Origin: Prauserella alba
Lineage (GTDB): Bacteria > Actinomycetota > Actinomycetes > Mycobacteriales > Pseudonocardiaceae
Assembly: GCF_024171735.1 (NCBI RefSeq)
Contig: NZ_JAMTCH010000003.1
Span: forward strand, 1,104,841 to 1,168,840
Direction: 5' to 3'
Length of the DNA stretch: 64,000 bases
Positions 35,645-42,977 of this stretch are shown here, in pieces. How positions within the stretch are numbered: the stretch's first letter is position 1; each line of letters begins with the position of its first letter. Position numbers and translations under genes: made by a program. Under the pieces are notes generated by a model that did not search any database, had not been told where the DNA came from, and was given only the letters and a program-made list of their open reading frames with translations.

Positions 35645-36682
35645 GTGGGTGCGGAGGTCGTCGTCGAAGGGCTGTCCAAGTCGTTCGGCAAGCAGCCGAT
35701 CTGGCGGGACGTGACGCTGACGCTGCCGCCGGGCGAGGTGTCGGTGCTGCTCGGCCCGTCGGGTACCGGCAAGTCGGTGTTCCTCAAGTCGATGATCGGC
35801 CTGCTCAAACCCGACCACGGCTCCTGCACGGTCGACGGCACCGACATCGTGCGCTGTTCGGAGCGCAGGCTCTACGACACCCGCAAGCTGTTCGGGGTGC
35901 TGTTCCAGGACGGTGCGCTGTTCGGGTCGATGAACCTCTTCGACAACGTCGCGTTCCCGTTGCGGGAGCACACCAAGAAGTCGGAAACCGAAGTGCGCCG
36001 CATCGTGCTGGAGAAGCTCGCGCTGACCGGGCTGGGCGGGGCCGAGGACAAGTTGCCCGGCGAGATCTCCGGCGGGATGCGCAAACGTGCCGGGCTTGCC
36101 CGCGCGCTGGTGCTCGACCCGGAGATCATCCTGTGCGACGAGCCGGACTCCGGCCTGGATCCGGTGCGCACCGCCTACATCTCGCAGCTGCTGGTGGACC
36201 TGAACGCGCAGATCGACGCGACGATCCTCATCGTCACCCACAACATCAACGTGGCACGCACCGTGCCGGACAACATCGGCATGCTGTTCCGCAAGGAACT
36301 CGTCATGTTCGGCCCGCGCGAGGTGCTGCTGACCTCCGACGAACCCGTCGTCGAACAGTTCCTCAACGGCCGGGTGCGTGGCCCGATCGGCATGAGCGAG
36401 GAGAAGGACACGGCGCAGATCGCCCGTGAGGAGGCCCACGCCGCCGCGGGCCACCACGACGGATCGGTCGACGACGTGCGCGGCGTCGTCCCGCAGCTGC
36501 AACCGACCCCCGGGTTGCCGCAACGGCAGGGGGCGCTCCGGCGCAAGGACCGGGTGATGTCGATCCTGCACACACTGCCTCCCGAGGCGCAGCGGAGTAT
36601 CACCGCGTCGCTGTCCGACGAGGACCGCGTCCGGTACGCCACCGATGGCGGCAGTGCGGCGGCCGGCGCGCCGCCGCGGTGA
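35645..36682 (+). CDS. Mce-transporter ATPase (MceG/Mkl-like ABC ATP-binding protein)
   Basis: 345 residues. Walker A GPSGTGKS (about 33-40), signature ISGGMRKR, Walker B IILCDEPDSGLDP and His-switch IVTHNIN are all intact. GVLFQDGALFGSMNLFDNVAFPLREHTKKSE is characteristic of the ATPase that powers Mce lipid importers in actinobacteria, and the ~90-residue C-terminal extension (DTAQIAREEAHAA...RVMSILHTLPPEAQRSI) is also typical. Start GTG 35645 with AGGAGG at 35635. No mce permease or substrate-binding genes are in the window; an orphan ATPase serving distant mce operons is normal in this group. Confidence 0.92.
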   Translation: MGAEVVVEGLSKSFGKQPIWRDVTLTLPPGEVSVLLGPSGTGKSVFLKSMIGLLKPDHGSCTVDGTDIVRCSERRLYDTRKLFGVLFQDGALFGSMNLFDNVAFPLREHTKKSETEVRRIVLEKLALTGLGGAEDKLPGEISGGMRKRAGLARALVLDPEIILCDEPDSGLDPVRTAYISQLLVDLNAQIDATILIVTHNINVARTVPDNIGMLFRKELVMFGPREVLLTSDEPVVEQFLNGRVRGPIGMSEEKDTAQIAREEAHAAAGHHDGSVDDVRGVVPQLQPTPGLPQRQGALRRKDRVMSILHTLPPEAQRSITASLSDEDRVRYATDGGSAAAGAPPR

Positions 36683-36744
36683 CGGCGCGTCGCCGGCGTG
36701 GCTGTGCGGGCCGGTGGGGCGGCGGGAACCGATACGTTGGAGGG

Positions 36745-37635
36745 GTGCAGACCGGTGAGACTTCCGCAGGATCCGTGATCCGTTTCCGAGGCCGGGCGAT
36801 GCGCAGGGACCGGCCGCTGGTCATGGCGATCGTGAACCGCACGCCGGACTCGTTCTACGACCGCGGCGCGACCTACGCCGCAGGCGAGGCACTGGCCGCG
36901 GCCGAGCGGGCGATCGCCGACGGTGCGGACATCATCGACGTGGGCGGGGTGAAGGCGGGGCCGGGCACCGACGTCGACGTGGATGAGGAGACGCGGCGCG
37001 TGGTGCCGTTCGTGGCGCAGCTGCGGCAGCGGTTCCCCGACGTGGTCATCAGCGTCGACACCTGGCGCCGGGAGGTCGGCAGGCTGGCGTGCGAGGAGGG
37101 CGCGGACCTGCTCAACGACACCTGGGCGGGCGCGGACCCGGGACTGGCGGAGGTCGCCGCCGAGTTCGGCGCCGGCTACGTCTGCTCCCACACCGGCGGC
37201 GCGGTTCCCCGTACGCGGCCGCATCGGGTGCACTATCCCGACGTCGTGGCCGACGTGATCGCCGAGGTGACGCGCCGCGCCGAGGATCTGGTCCGCGAGG
37301 GGGTTCCTGCCGAGGGGCTGTTGGTCGACCCCACGCACGACTTCGGTAAGAACACATGGCATTCGCTCGCGCTCACCCGCGATCTGGGACGGCTGGTCGA
37401 CACCGGGTGGCCGGTGCTGGTGGCGTTGTCCAACAAGGACTTCATCGGCGAGACGCTCGACCGGGCCGTGGGTGAGCGGTTGCCGGGCACACTCGCCGCG
37501 ACCGCGGTGTGCGCGTGGCAGGGTGCGGCCGTCTTCCGCGCGCACAACGTGGCCGAGACATGCCAGGCGCTCGACGTGGTGGCGGCGATCCGCGGTGACA
37601 AGCCGCCCGCCCGTGTGATCCGCGGGCTGGCGTGA
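36745..37635 (+). CDS. folP2: FolP2-type dihydropteroate synthase homologue
   Basis: About 296 residues. LVMAIVNRTPDSFYDRGATY, GADIIDVGGVKAGPGTDVDVDEETRRVVPFV, SVDTWRREVGRLACEEGADLLNDTWAG and a C-terminus ending VIRGLA match mycobacterial FolP2 closely. Pterin-binding residues are present, but in M. tuberculosis FolP2 is reported not to replace the true synthase FolP1, so the role is open. Start uncertain: GTG 36745 lies only 1 nt after GGAGG, GTG 36775 is an alternative, and the frame reaches a GTG overlapping the previous stop. Confidence 0.85.
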   Translation: MQTGETSAGSVIRFRGRAMRRDRPLVMAIVNRTPDSFYDRGATYAAGEALAAAERAIADGADIIDVGGVKAGPGTDVDVDEETRRVVPFVAQLRQRFPDVVISVDTWRREVGRLACEEGADLLNDTWAGADPGLAEVAAEFGAGYVCSHTGGAVPRTRPHRVHYPDVVADVIAEVTRRAEDLVREGVPAEGLLVDPTHDFGKNTWHSLALTRDLGRLVDTGWPVLVALSNKDFIGETLDRAVGERLPGTLAATAVCAWQGAAVFRAHNVAETCQALDVVAAIRGDKPPARVIRGLA

Positions 37636-37708
37636 TCGTCGAGAGCTGACGGACCCGCCCGCGAGCGGTACGGTGTCGGGTACGCGACGAGCCGACTGGA
37701 GGACGTCC

Positions 37709-40700
37709 ATGGGTGTGAGCGATTGGATCCGGTCGTGGCCGGTTTATCGTCAGCTCACGGGCGCCGACCGGCTCGGCAGGGGAGAGGCCGCGGCATCGCC
37801 GAACTCCCGTGAGCGCCGGCCCCGCACCGTCGATGCCGACCGGGTGGCGGGTTCGGTCTGCCCGTACTGCGCCGTCGGCTGCGCCCAGAACGTCTACGTC
37901 GGCAGCGACGACACCGGCGAGCACGTGCTGCAGATCGAGGGCAACCCGGACAGCCCGGTCTCGCGCGGGCGGTTGTGCCCGAAGGGCTCGGCCAGCAACC
38001 AGCTCGTCACCGGCGAGCACCGCGAGGACCGGGTGCTGTACCGGCCCGCATACGGCACCGAGTGGCAGGAGCTGGACCTGCCCACGGCGATGGACATGCT
38101 GGCCGACCGGGTGCTCGACGCGCGCCGCAAGGGCTGGCAGGAGGCCGACGCCGACGGCAAGCCGCTCCGGCGCACACAGGGCATCGCCAGCCTCGGAGGG
38201 GCGACGCTCGACAACGAAGAGAACTACCTGATCAAGAAGCTCTTCACGGCACTCGGCGCGGTGCAGATCGAGAACCAGGCGCGTATTTGACACTCCGCCA
38301 CGGTTCCCGGTCTGGGAGCCTCCTTCGGTCGCGGTGGCGCGACGGACTATCAGCAGGACCTGGCCAATGCCGACTGCGTCGTCATCATGGGCTCGAACAT
38401 GGCCGAGGCGCATCCGGTGGGCTTCCAGTGGGTCATGGAGGCGAAGGCGCGCGGCGCCAGGGTGCTGCACATCGACCCGCGATTCACGCGGACGAGCGCG
38501 CTCGCGGACAAGCACGTCCCGCTGCGGGCCGGCTCGGACATCGCATTCCTCGGCGGGGTGATCAACCACATCCTGTCGAACGACCTGGACTTCCGGGAGT
38601 ACGTGCAGGCCTACACGAACGCGCCGTTCCTGGTCAGTGAGGAGTTCGCCGACACGGAGGACCTCGACGGGCTGTTCTCGGGCTACGACCCCGAGACCGG
38701 CACGTACGACACGTCGACGTGGCAGTACGAGAACGGCCTGCCCGAGCACTCGGCCGAAGGCGACCGGCACCGGGAGCAGTCCGCGGGCGAGCAGCACGGC
38801 TCGGGCGGGCCGAAGCTCGAGAGCGGCACCGGGATCGCGACCGACGAGACGCTCCGGCACCCGCGCTGTGTGTTCCAGATCCTCAAGCGTCACTTCTCGC
38901 GGTACACGCCGGAGATGGTGGAGCGGATCTGCGGTGTCTCCCGCGAGGACTTCCTCGACGTGTGCCGGGCGTGGACGAGCGCGTCGGGACGGGAGCACAC
39001 GGCGGCGCTGGTCTACAGCGTCGGCTGGACGCAGCATTCGATGGGCGCCCAGTACATCCGCGCGGGCGCGATCATCCAGCTGCTGCTCGGCAACATCGGC
39101 AGGCCCGGCGGGGGAGTGCTGGCGCTGCGCGGGCACGCGAGCATCCAGGGCTCGACCGACATCCCGACCCTGTACAACCTGCTGCCGGGCTACCTGCCGA
39201 TGCCGGACGCCCGGCACGCGGGTAAACAGGACTACGTCGAGTCGATCCGCGGCACGCACCAGAAGGGGTACTGGCACAACGCGGACGACTACATCGTGTC
39301 GCTGCTCAAGGAATACTGGGGCGAGGCGGCGACGGCCGAGAACGACTACTGCTTCGGCCATCTGCCGCGCATCGACGGTGACCACGGCACCTACCGGACC
39401 GTGATGGACATGATCGACGGGAAGGTCTTCGGTTACTTCCTGCTCGGCCAGAACCCCGCCGTCGGCTCGGCACACGGGCGGCTGCAGCGACTCGGCATGG
39501 CCAACCTCGACTGGCTCGTCGTGCGCGACCTGACGATGATCGAGAGCGCCGAGTTCTGGCGCAACGCACCCGAGATCGAGACCGGCGAGATCGCCGCGGA
39601 GCGGTGCCGCACCGAGGTGTTCTTCTTCCCGGCCGCCTCACACGTGGAGAAGGAGGGCACGTTCACGCAGACGCAGCGGATGCTGCAGTGGCGTGACCGC
39701 GCCGTCGAGCCGCGTGGGGACCAGCGTTCGGAATTGTGGTTCATCTACCACCTGGGGCGGCTGCTGCAGCGCAAGGTCGCCGGGTCGACCGACGACCGCG
39801 ACCGGCCGCTGCAGGACCTGGCGTGGGATTACCGCACCGAGGGCGACGGCGAGTTTCCGGAACCCTCGGCCGACGACGTGCTGCGCCGCATCAACGGTGC
39901 GGACCTGACCACGGGCGAGCTCCTGGACAGCTACCTCCAGCTGCGTTCCGACGGGACGACGGCGGCGGGCTGCTGGATCTACAGCGGCGTCTACGCGGGC
40001 GGGGTCAACCGAGCCCGCAACCGCACCGCGCGGACCGAGCAGGACGAGACGGCACTCGAATGGGGTTGGGCGTGGCCCGCGAACCGGCGGGTGCTGTACA
40101 ACCGTGCCTCGGCCGACCCGCAGGGCAGGCCGTGGAGCGAACGCAAGAAACTCGTCTGGTGGGACGCCGGGCGCGGCGAGTGGACCGGCCACGACGTGCC
40201 GGACTTCCCCAAGAACACCCCGCCCGGGTTCGAACCGGAGTACGGCGAGGCCGGGCCGGGCGCGCTCGCCGGTGACGACCCGTTCATCATGCAGGCCGAC
40301 GGCAAGGCGTGGTTGTTCGCGCCGAGCGGGGTGGTCGACGGCCCGCTGCCGACGCACTACGAACCGCACGAGTCGCCGATGCCGAACCTGCTCTACGGTC
40401 AGCAGGGCAGTCCGGCTCGCAAGGTGTACGCGCGCGGGGACAACCCGTCGAACCCCGCTCCGCCCGAGTCCGGCGGTGAGGTGTTCCCGTTCGTGTTCAC
40501 CGCGGCGCGGCTCACCGAACACCACACGGCCGGTGGCATGAGCAGGCAACTGGCGTACCTGTCCGAACTGCAGCCCGCGCTGTTCGTGGAGGTCTCGCCG
40601 CAGCTGGCGGCCGAACGCGGCCTGGCGAACCTCGACTGGGCACACGTGGTCACCAGCAGGGCCGCCGTCGACGCGCGAGTGATGGTCACCGAGCGCATGC

Positions 40701-41074
40701 GGCCGCTGCGACTCGACGGCCGGGTGGTGCACCAGGTGTGGATGCCGTACCACTGGGGGCCGAGCGGCAAGGTCGACGGCGACATCGTCAACGACCTGCT
40801 CGGTGTGGTGCTGGATCCGAACACGCTGATCCAGGAGAGCAAGGTCGCCACGTGCGACATCCGGCCGGGCAGGCGCCCGCGCGGTCGTGAACTGCTGGAG
40901 TACCTCGCCGAGTACCGCAGGCGTGCGGGTGTGACGGTGGAGACCGGCACGCACGTCATGACGGCGGACACAACGGCTTCGGAGACGGCGGCTCCGGAGA
41001 CGACGGAACCGGAGACGACGGGACGGGACACGACCGCCGCACCGGACACGACCGATCGGGAGGAGGACGCATGA
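37709..41074 (+). CDS. Formate dehydrogenase catalytic (alpha) subunit, selenocysteine-containing
   Basis: 1121 residues when UGA at 38288-38290 is read as selenocysteine (Sec194). The frame continues uninterrupted across it: VQIENQARI-U-HSATVPGLGASFGRGGATDY is the classical formate dehydrogenase active-site segment in which Sec or Cys binds molybdenum or tungsten. A [4Fe-4S] site is formed by Cys51, Cys54, Cys58 and Cys90 (CPYCAVGC...CPKG); molybdopterin domains follow (GSNMAEAHPVGFQWVMEA, RHPRCVFQILKRHF, VYSVGWTQHSMGAQYIRAGAIIQLLLGNIG). No twin-arginine signal is visible, so the enzyme is probably cytoplasmic. The C-terminal 30 residues are Thr/Glu-rich repeats. GGAGGA precedes ATG 37709; its stop overlaps the next ATG. 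Confidence 0.93.
38288..38320 (+). promoter_or_regulatory. Selenocysteine codon and bacterial SECIS hairpin
   Basis: UGA 38288-38290 is followed 11 nt later by the stem GGTTCCC (38302-38308) / GGGAGCC (38314-38320), closing the loop GGTCT (38309-38313). Position and loop match the SelB-binding SECIS of E. coli fdhF, which has the same GGTCT loop text. The element lies inside the coding sequence, as in bacteria. Confidence 0.88.
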
Positions 41075-42000
41075 CCGTCTCGCGGGAGAGCTTCTACGGG
41101 CCGCTGGACGACGTCTCGGGCGACGCCGGGTACACCGAGCACCCGGAGCGGGTCGGATTCTTCACCGACACGTCGGTGTGCATCGGCTGCAAGGCGTGCG
41201 AGGTGGCGTGCAAGGAGTGGAACCTCCTGCCCGACGACGGGTTCGACCTGCTCGGCATGTCGTTCGACAACACCGGTGAGCTGAGCGCGAACTCGTGGCG
41301 GCACGTGGCGTTCATCGAACAGCCCGCACCGTTGCGGGAGTCGGCCGCTGCGCGAGAGGCGGATGCGGTCGACCTCGGGTTGCCGTCGTTCGACCTGCCC
41401 GGTGCCGGCACGGGTGAGGAGACCCGGACCGATTTCCGGTGGCTGATGAGTTCGGACGTGTGCAAACACTGCACGCACGCCGGATGCCTCGACGTCTGCC
41501 CGACCGGGGCGCTGTTCCGCACCGAGTTCGGGACGGTCGTGGTGCAGGACGACATCTGCAACGGTTGCGGCTACTGCGTGTCCGGCTGCCCGTACGGGGT
41601 GATCGACCGGCGGGAGGGCGACGGCAGGGCGTGGAAGTGCACCATGTGTTACGACCGGTTGAGCGACGGCATGGAACCGGCCTGCGCCAAGGCCTGCCCG
41701 ACCGATTCCATCCAGTTCGGACCGTTGGACGAGCTGCGCGAGCGGGCGCGGCAGCGAGTGGCGACGCTGCACGAGCGGGGTGTCACCGAGGCACGGTTGT
41801 ACGGCGAGGACCCGAACGACGGAGTCGGCGGTGACGGTGCGTTTTTCCTGCTGCTGGACGAACCCGAGGTGTACGGGCTGCCGCCGGACCCCGTCGTGCC
41901 GACCCGCGACGCGGGCTCGATGTGGGCGCGGGCCGGCGTGGCGGCTGCGGCGTTCGCCGCTGCGGCCGTGTCCGTCTTCTTCGGACGGAGCAGCCGATGA
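41071..42000 (+). CDS. Formate dehydrogenase iron-sulfur (beta) subunit
   Basis: 309 residues with four ferredoxin-type cysteine groups: CIGCKACEVACKEW, CKHCTHAGCLDVCPTGAL, CNGCGYCVSGCPYGV and CTMCYDRL...ACAKACPTDSI, so four [4Fe-4S] clusters in a wire from the catalytic subunit. A single C-terminal membrane helix (about 285-303, AGVAAAAFAAAAVSVFF) anchors it, as in FdnH/FdoH. ATG overlaps the alpha-subunit TGA and its own TGA overlaps the next ATG, giving tight stoichiometric coupling. Confidence 0.93.
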   Translation: MTVSRESFYGPLDDVSGDAGYTEHPERVGFFTDTSVCIGCKACEVACKEWNLLPDDGFDLLGMSFDNTGELSANSWRHVAFIEQPAPLRESAAAREADAVDLGLPSFDLPGAGTGEETRTDFRWLMSSDVCKHCTHAGCLDVCPTGALFRTEFGTVVVQDDICNGCGYCVSGCPYGVIDRREGDGRAWKCTMCYDRLSDGMEPACAKACPTDSIQFGPLDELRERARQRVATLHERGVTEARLYGEDPNDGVGGDGAFFLLLDEPEVYGLPPDPVVPTRDAGSMWARAGVAAAAFAAAAVSVFFGRSSR

Positions 42001-42977
42001 GCCGCTCGCTGGGCCGGGTGGCCGCCGGGGACACCGGTCGTGAGCAGCGGTCTCCGGGTGAGGAGGACTTCCGGTCGTACTACGGCAGGCGCGTACTCAA
42101 GGAACCGGTGTGGGAGTGGCTCGTACCGGCGTACCTGTTCGCGGGCGGGTTGTCGGCGGCGTGCGCCGAACTCGCGGCCGGGGCCGACCTGACGCGGCGG
42201 CCGCGGCTGCGGAAGGCCGCGAGACTCGGCGCGCTCGGCGGTCTCGCCACGAGCATGTACTTCCTGATCGCCGATCTGGGCAGGCCCGAACGCTTCCATC
42301 ACATGCTGCGCGTGGCGAAACCGAGTTCGCCGATGAGCGTCGGCACATGGATCCTCGTCGCCTACGGGCCCGGTGTCGGTGTCGCGGCGGCGGCTGAGCT
42401 CCTGCCCGCCCGGCTGCGGCGCAGGTGGCCCGGCAAGCTGATCGGCGCGCTGGCCCGCCCGGCGGGGCTGGCGTCGGCGGCGGTCGCGCCGGGCGTGGCC
42501 TCCTACACGGCGGTACTGCTGTCGCACACGGCCGTGCCGGCGTGGAACGAGGCCCGCGACCGGCTGCCGTTCGTGTTCACCGGTTCGGCCGCGGCCGCCG
42601 GCGGTGGGTTCGGCATGGTGTGCACGCCCGTCGACGAGGCCGAACCCGCGCGGAAACTCGCGGCGGTCGGTGCCGTCACAGAGCTGGTCACGTCGCGGCA
42701 GCTGGACGAGCGGCTGGGCGTCGTCAGCGAGGCGTACCGGACGGGCAAGGCGCACCGGTTGCGGCAGTGGTCGGAGTACCTGACCGCGGGCGGTGCACTG
42801 GGCAGTTTGCTGGCCGGCCGGAGTCGTGCCGCTGCGGTGACCTCGGGCCTGGCGCTGCTCGCCGGGAGTGCGTTGCAGCGGTTCGGCATCTTCGAGGCGG
42901 GCGTCCAGTCGACGAAGGACCCGAAGTACGTCGTCGTGCCGCAGCGTCGGCGGGTGGACCGGGGCGAGCAGGCCTGA
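41997..42977 (+). CDS. NrfD/PsrC-like membrane subunit of formate dehydrogenase
   Basis: 326 residues, about 8 membrane segments. PVWEWLVPAYLFAGGLSAACAELAAGADL and FLIADLGRPERFHHMLRVAKPSSPMSVGTWILVAYGP are classic NrfD/PolyS-reductase family text, including the LGRP turn and PMSxGxW. It would pass electrons from the beta subunit to the quinone pool in place of a cytochrome b gamma subunit. ATG 41997 overlaps the beta-subunit stop. No fdhD, fdhE or sel genes follow within this window. Confidence 0.9.
   Translation: MSRSLGRVAAGDTGREQRSPGEEDFRSYYGRRVLKEPVWEWLVPAYLFAGGLSAACAELAAGADLTRRPRLRKAARLGALGGLATSMYFLIADLGRPERFHHMLRVAKPSSPMSVGTWILVAYGPGVGVAAAAELLPARLRRRWPGKLIGALARPAGLASAAVAPGVASYTAVLLSHTAVPAWNEARDRLPFVFTGSAAAAGGGFGMVCTPVDEAEPARKLAAVGAVTELVTSRQLDERLGVVSEAYRTGKAHRLRQWSEYLTAGGALGSLLAGRSRAAAVTSGLALLAGSALQRFGIFEAGVQSTKDPKYVVVPQRRRVDRGEQA

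Follow-up and report, generated by a model that had tools for sequence, protein, structure and literature searches.

A predicted selenocysteine formate dehydrogenase in Prauserella alba with a conserved in-frame UGA and a covarying SECIS hairpin

The gene fdhA, located in the window (the whole 64,000-nucleotide stretch of Prauserella alba DNA analysed here), almost certainly encodes a selenocysteine-containing, molybdopterin-dependent formate dehydrogenase. Evidence from the gene, its relatives and the genome strongly supports predicted selenocysteine (Sec) insertion at codon 194. The reading frame is intact and the UGA is conserved; the UGA is followed by a covarying hairpin that is broken in relatives with a cysteine codon, and all four sel genes are present in the genome. 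fdhA is also the first of three overlapping genes.

The fdhA frame and its neighbours

The frame opens with an ATG, reaches TGA at codon 194, remains open for another 927 codons and next stops at the terminal TGA (41072-41074), with formate dehydrogenase matches on either side of codon 194. The codon occupies the active-site position in the context NQARI-U-HSATVPGLG. An earlier note on this DNA had described the TGA as the sole interruption of a 1121-codon frame at that position, and both the frame and the homologue alignment bear it out. The note had also expected a standard gene call to split the gene. The plain ORF list indeed divides it into 205 aa (37673-38290) and 895 aa (38387-41074), but NCBI has a curated full-length model, NF041513. 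The matter is relevant to annotation in that a caller unaware of Sec cuts one respiratory enzyme into two.

FdhA, encoded at G000:C1:1142549-1145911 of the genome, scored 1880.6 bits against NF041513 (formate_DH_Act, the curated NCBIfam model for actinobacterial formate dehydrogenase; cut-off 1400) and 941 bits against TIGR01553, above the cut-off of 814.2 for the alpha subunit of formate dehydrogenase N. The Pfam domains Molybdopterin, Molybdop_Fe4S4 and Molydop_binding were identified in the protein. Among PDB entries its best-scoring relatives are two formate dehydrogenase chains, 1h0h_A and, from E. coli FDH-N, 1kqf_A, and the fold can be regarded as settled given these relatives; codon 194 lies opposite an unusual residue (X) in both chains. 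The closest named copies among the matches listed are from Prauserella isguenensis (93%) and P. rugosa (89%). A profile search showed that FdhD is also encoded in the genome. Inspection by eye of the N-terminus of FdhA and of 16 relatives revealed no twin-arginine-like segment, which suggests that FdhA may face the cytoplasm.

fdhA, fdhB and an NrfD-type gene lie on the same strand with successive 4-base overlaps, the start of the third gene having been set by choice at its ATG. FdhB has a hydrophobic C-terminal segment by eye, and its score of 191.3 bits against TIGR01582 (FDH-beta) falls under the cut-off of 334.7 for the E. coli-type beta subunit. The third gene matched NrfD families only in Pfam, with no cytochrome b556-type gamma subunit identified, and had no NCBIfam match at E 0.001; its product is probably the quinone-side anchor. 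Among the 80 named fdhA loci, which are the best 80 of at least 594 confirmed, an FdhB match was present in 79 and an NrfD match in 72, and the eight loci lacking the latter all stop no more than 230 bases beyond their last match. At one locus (L102) FdhB and NrfD are upstream of fdhA rather than downstream. The upstream dihydropteroate synthase and ABC ATPase genes were examined as possible members of the operon and discounted: dihydropteroate synthase was matched in only 2 of the same best 80 loci, both titled Prauserella, although many of the loci are short upstream.

Table 1. Positions of fdhA, its signals and the associated genes (window positions, except for tRNA-Sec, which is given on the genome).
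Feature	Position	Strand	Remarks
Dihydropteroate synthase	36679-37635		directly upstream of fdhA; TIGR01496 273.3 bits
fdhA, formate dehydrogenase alpha subunit	37709..41074	+	1121 residues with TGA 38288 read through; Sec194 (predicted)
In-frame TGA, predicted Sec codon (codon 194)	38288..38290	+	aligns with Sec of E. coli FdnG and FdhF
Putative SECIS hairpin GGTTCCC-GGTCT-GGGAGCC	38302..38320	+	loop GGTCT 38309-38313; six conserved pairs 38303-38308 / 38314-38319
fdhB, 4Fe-4S electron transfer subunit	41071..42000	+	309 aa; Fer4_11 86.9 bits
NrfD-type integral membrane subunit	41997..42977	+	PF03916 NrfD 58.5 bits; PF14589 NrfD_2 43.9 bits
tRNA-Sec (selC)	G000:C1:1843650-1843740		Rfam 73.1 bits, cut-off 47; one in genome

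A hairpin 3' of the UGA

The hairpin lies directly 3' of the UGA and has G-U in its loop, as is characteristic of the bacterial-type SECIS. The distance from the T of the TGA to the start of the loop is 21 bases. The seven-pair stem-loop proposed in the earlier note holds in its location and in its fdhF-like loop, but the outermost pair is not conserved, being standard in just 44 of 93 distinct TGA sequences. The Rfam model SECIS_3 matched positions 38285-38343 with 33.3 bits (E 8.8e-5), below its gathering score of 63. The 23-nt hairpin has a folding energy of -12.6 kcal/mol (z -2.95), equalled by none of 200 shuffles; the fold energy of the wider 48-nt stretch around it is not unusual (z -0.28; 65 of 200 shuffles as good). 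The real support for the predicted element is comparative and does not come from folding energy.

For this comparison we used 110 loci, namely the best 80 of at least 594 and 30 from a search of 297 genomes of the host's family; the set includes the window's own copy, and some species may occur twice. Codon 194 is TGA in 109 of the 110 and TGC in one (L100), and the titles of the TGA loci include Prauserella, Amycolatopsis, Mycobacterium, Streptomyces, Micromonospora and Nocardioides. Five further same-genus copies (L104-L108) and three Prauserella-titled ones (L023, L024 and L049), two sets that may share species, all have TGA, making a sequencing error at this codon, a doubt raised in the earlier note, very unlikely. 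All six pairs can form in 108 of the 109 TGA loci. Collapsed to 93 distinct TGA sequences of 90 bases, the set shows every one of the inner six pairs in at least 92. At the first and second codon positions most hairpin columns are invariant, and the wobble bases of CCC, GGT and CTG are identical in all 93. The most variable pair, between the wobble positions of a Val and a Gly codon (CG 43, TA 39, TG 8, GT 2, GC 1), is nevertheless formed in every sequence, and compensatory change there is clear.

Covariation was evaluated on the seven-pair structure against 500 shuffles, using 29 sequences hand-picked for variety from 59 distinct ones. The score of 0.258 was reached by no shuffle, and slid registers of the hairpin gave at most 0.125. 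Neither the proportion of paired cells (92.1%) nor the number of cells altered on both sides (15) was reached by any shuffle, and the eight further pair types were reached by 4 of 500; two pairs showed change on both sides, a figure matched by 168 of 500 and not unusual.

Two observations concern individual TGA copies. The copy in genome G206 (L138) has the loop AGTTT rather than GGTCT or AGTCT, with its six pairs intact. Another assembly (G257; 83% complete, 5% contamination) contains two different TGA fdhA copies, L142 and L151, both with six pairs.

We also searched the genome for other elements of this kind. A SECIS model (R1), covering SECIS of this type and applied to 150 of 12733 first-look candidates, returned one strong match, the one in the window (E 1.6e-16), the next having E 1.24. 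The pattern TGA + 18 bases + RGTCTG occurs at 14 genome sites, compared with 19 for the reversed-pattern control. Only the window's site has the six-pair stem, the other 13 showing 0-3 consecutive pairs outward from the loop.

Sec machinery and cysteine-coding relatives

The earlier note had predicted a complete Sec pathway and had held that the absence of selB or tRNA-Sec from the genome would speak against the idea. Both were found in the 5.61-Mb genome (99.93% complete), where tRNA-Sec, SelA, SelB and SelD each exceed the curated cut-off. The four loci form a single cluster roughly 0.7 Mb from fdhA (about G000:C1:1840.5-1844.8 kb), with selB, selA and selC on one strand and selD on the opposite one. 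ARAGORN called tRNA-SeC with anticodon tca at the selC locus. Profile searches gave 421.7 bits for SelA (cut-off 267.9) and 384.9 bits for SelD (cut-off 125). SelB, with frame neighbours included, was narrowly over its cut-off of 242.25 at 243.1 bits; as a 590-aa stretch cut from the 814-aa ORF it scored 249.7 bits, and this stretch contains the GTPase, SelB beta-barrel and C-terminal SelB-wing_3 domains. By eye, SelD (L004 1600-2661) seems to have Cys rather than Sec near its N-terminus (GGGCACK). Among 14 well-known control genomes, SelA was matched at E 1e-60 in E. coli alone, while SelB and SelD were over cut-off in two genomes each and tRNA-Sec in five. Besides the hairpin, fdhA presents two further features of a selenoprotein gene, a UGA aligned with known Sec and a genome containing selA, selB, selC and selD.

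In the 297 genomes of the host's family, FdhA was matched at E 1e-50 in 177 and SelA at E 1e-60 in 198. Both occurred in 165 genomes, FdhA alone in 12, SelA alone in 33 and neither in 87 (Fisher p 8e-34, kinship ignored); these counts rest on protein matches, codon 194 having been read in a minority of the 165. The 33 genomes with SelA alone may encode selenoproteins of other kinds, or a formate dehydrogenase unlike this one. We opened 17 loci, from the 12 FdhA-only genomes and from four SelA-positive ones for contrast, and found TGA in nine and TGC in eight. All four contrast genomes have TGA. Eight of the 12 FdhA-only genomes, with assemblies 90-100% complete, have TGC at codon 194. The other four (G195, G206, G215 and G257; five loci) have TGA and all six pairs; these assemblies are 82-83% complete, and SelA was likely missed in them owing to this incompleteness.

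The comparison with Cys-type FdhA called for in the earlier note covered nine TGC copies, L100 and these eight, none with an intact hairpin. Each forms three to five of the six pairs, leaving one to three broken, none has the loop GGTCT, and all use other codons and encode other residues across the hairpin region. Eight of the nine come from genomes without a SelA match, and the genome of L100 lay outside the SelA search. With the stem disrupted in copies that have a Cys codon, and SelA not found in the eight genomes tested, the TGA and TGC relatives form a neat natural control of SECIS function in bacteria of high GC content.

Mechanism, rival readings and known systems

From knowledge of the families, on which SelB delivery, Sec-metal ligation and the electron path are modelled, we infer Sec insertion in the cell together with the substrate, metal, electron path and direction. 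SelA, SelD and selC, encoded elsewhere in the genome, would produce the charged tRNA, and SelB with Sec-tRNA(Sec), recruited by the hairpin, would meet the ribosome at UGA 194, where Sec would be inserted with no stop. The Sec would ligate the active-site metal of the molybdopterin cofactor. Formate would be oxidized to CO2 at FdhA, and the electrons would pass from its [4Fe-4S] cluster through FdhB and the NrfD-type membrane subunit to the quinone pool. A broader picture, tentative and on balance rather doubtful, is that the complex, anchored by the NrfD-type subunit, faces the cytoplasm and not, as in E. coli, the periplasm; it would link formate oxidation to quinone reduction on the inside, or act as a CO2 reductase, in aerobes that would use selenium chiefly for it.

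Seen in isolation, a sequencing error at a Cys codon, or a fresh nonsense mutation in a dying pseudogene, would look just like this lone stop within a long frame. Such an origin is vanishingly improbable when TGA stands at the same codon across genera in 109 of the 110 loci (best 80 of at least 594, plus 30), the hairpin is conserved and the frame is intact beyond the TGA. Some UGA readthrough occurs in bacteria, and the evidence here is that of gene sequence, so the UGA might be imagined as being read by a near-cognate tRNA, such as that for Trp or Cys, or as acting as a regulated stop, with no Sec involved. The UGA, however, sits at the unusual-residue position of solved homologues, tRNA-Sec (anticodon tca), SelA, SelB and SelD are all present, and the hairpin is broken in the Cys copies; we consider this alternative very improbable.

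The hairpin itself might be a mere by-product of the conserved protein sequence VPGLG, a view favoured by the fixation of most columns at codon positions 1 and 2 and by a 48-nt fold no better than shuffles. It hardly accommodates the third positions of the TGA copies, which are fixed or co-varying in 93 of 93 sequences, nor the nine Cys copies with their other codons and residues there, and we judge it highly unlikely. Insertion of Sec at codon 194, guided by the hairpin, is the reading that we retain; the case is real, well supported and ordinary.

E. coli offers a comparison for both the protein and the hairpin. FdnG (PDB 1kqf) aligned over residues 42-341 and 349-1008 of 1015, with the Sec at the identical position. 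FdnG is exported by Tat, whereas a twin-arginine-like N-terminus was not seen here by eye, and the membrane subunit here is of the NrfD type, unlike that of E. coli formate dehydrogenase N. In E. coli K-12 fdhF (read from NC_000913) GGTCT stands at the identical +21 offset from the UGA, and fdnG has AGTCT where the hairpin here has GGTCT. The fdhF SECIS differs in stem sequence, and the six-pair stem here is without a bulged base. A bulged U is contained in the fdhF stem.

As the earlier note had recognized, the class is not new: Sec formate dehydrogenases are already known in Actinobacteria, both in print and in the curated NCBI family. Residues 6-1072 of FdhA match positions 2-1067 of the 1067 in NF041513, with no difference seen at the model level. 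In PMC7176365, Actinomycetospora chiangmaiensis DSM 45062 (Pseudonocardiaceae) is described as having a membrane-bound Sec-FDH (FDH1), which we liken by description to the system here, consisting of a 1078-residue Sec-FdhA with beta and gamma subunits. The same source reports SelA, SelB and SelD in the proteome and selenite-dependent formate removal in culture, formate accumulation being almost negligible with selenite; as three Sec-FDH systems are encoded in that genome, the effect of selenium cannot be ascribed to FDH1 alone. SelA and SelB are listed there in the FDH1 cluster, in contrast to the distant sel genes here. Two further papers present the same kind of Sec formate dehydrogenase in Amycolatopsis mediterranei (PMC4048454) and Corynebacterium aurimucosum (PMC2830990), the former describing A. 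orientalis as lacking the enzyme as well as the sel genes. The Sec-FDH-O of Streptomyces incarnatus with its selABCD (PMC4498112) likewise combines an in-frame UGA, a SECIS and sel genes.
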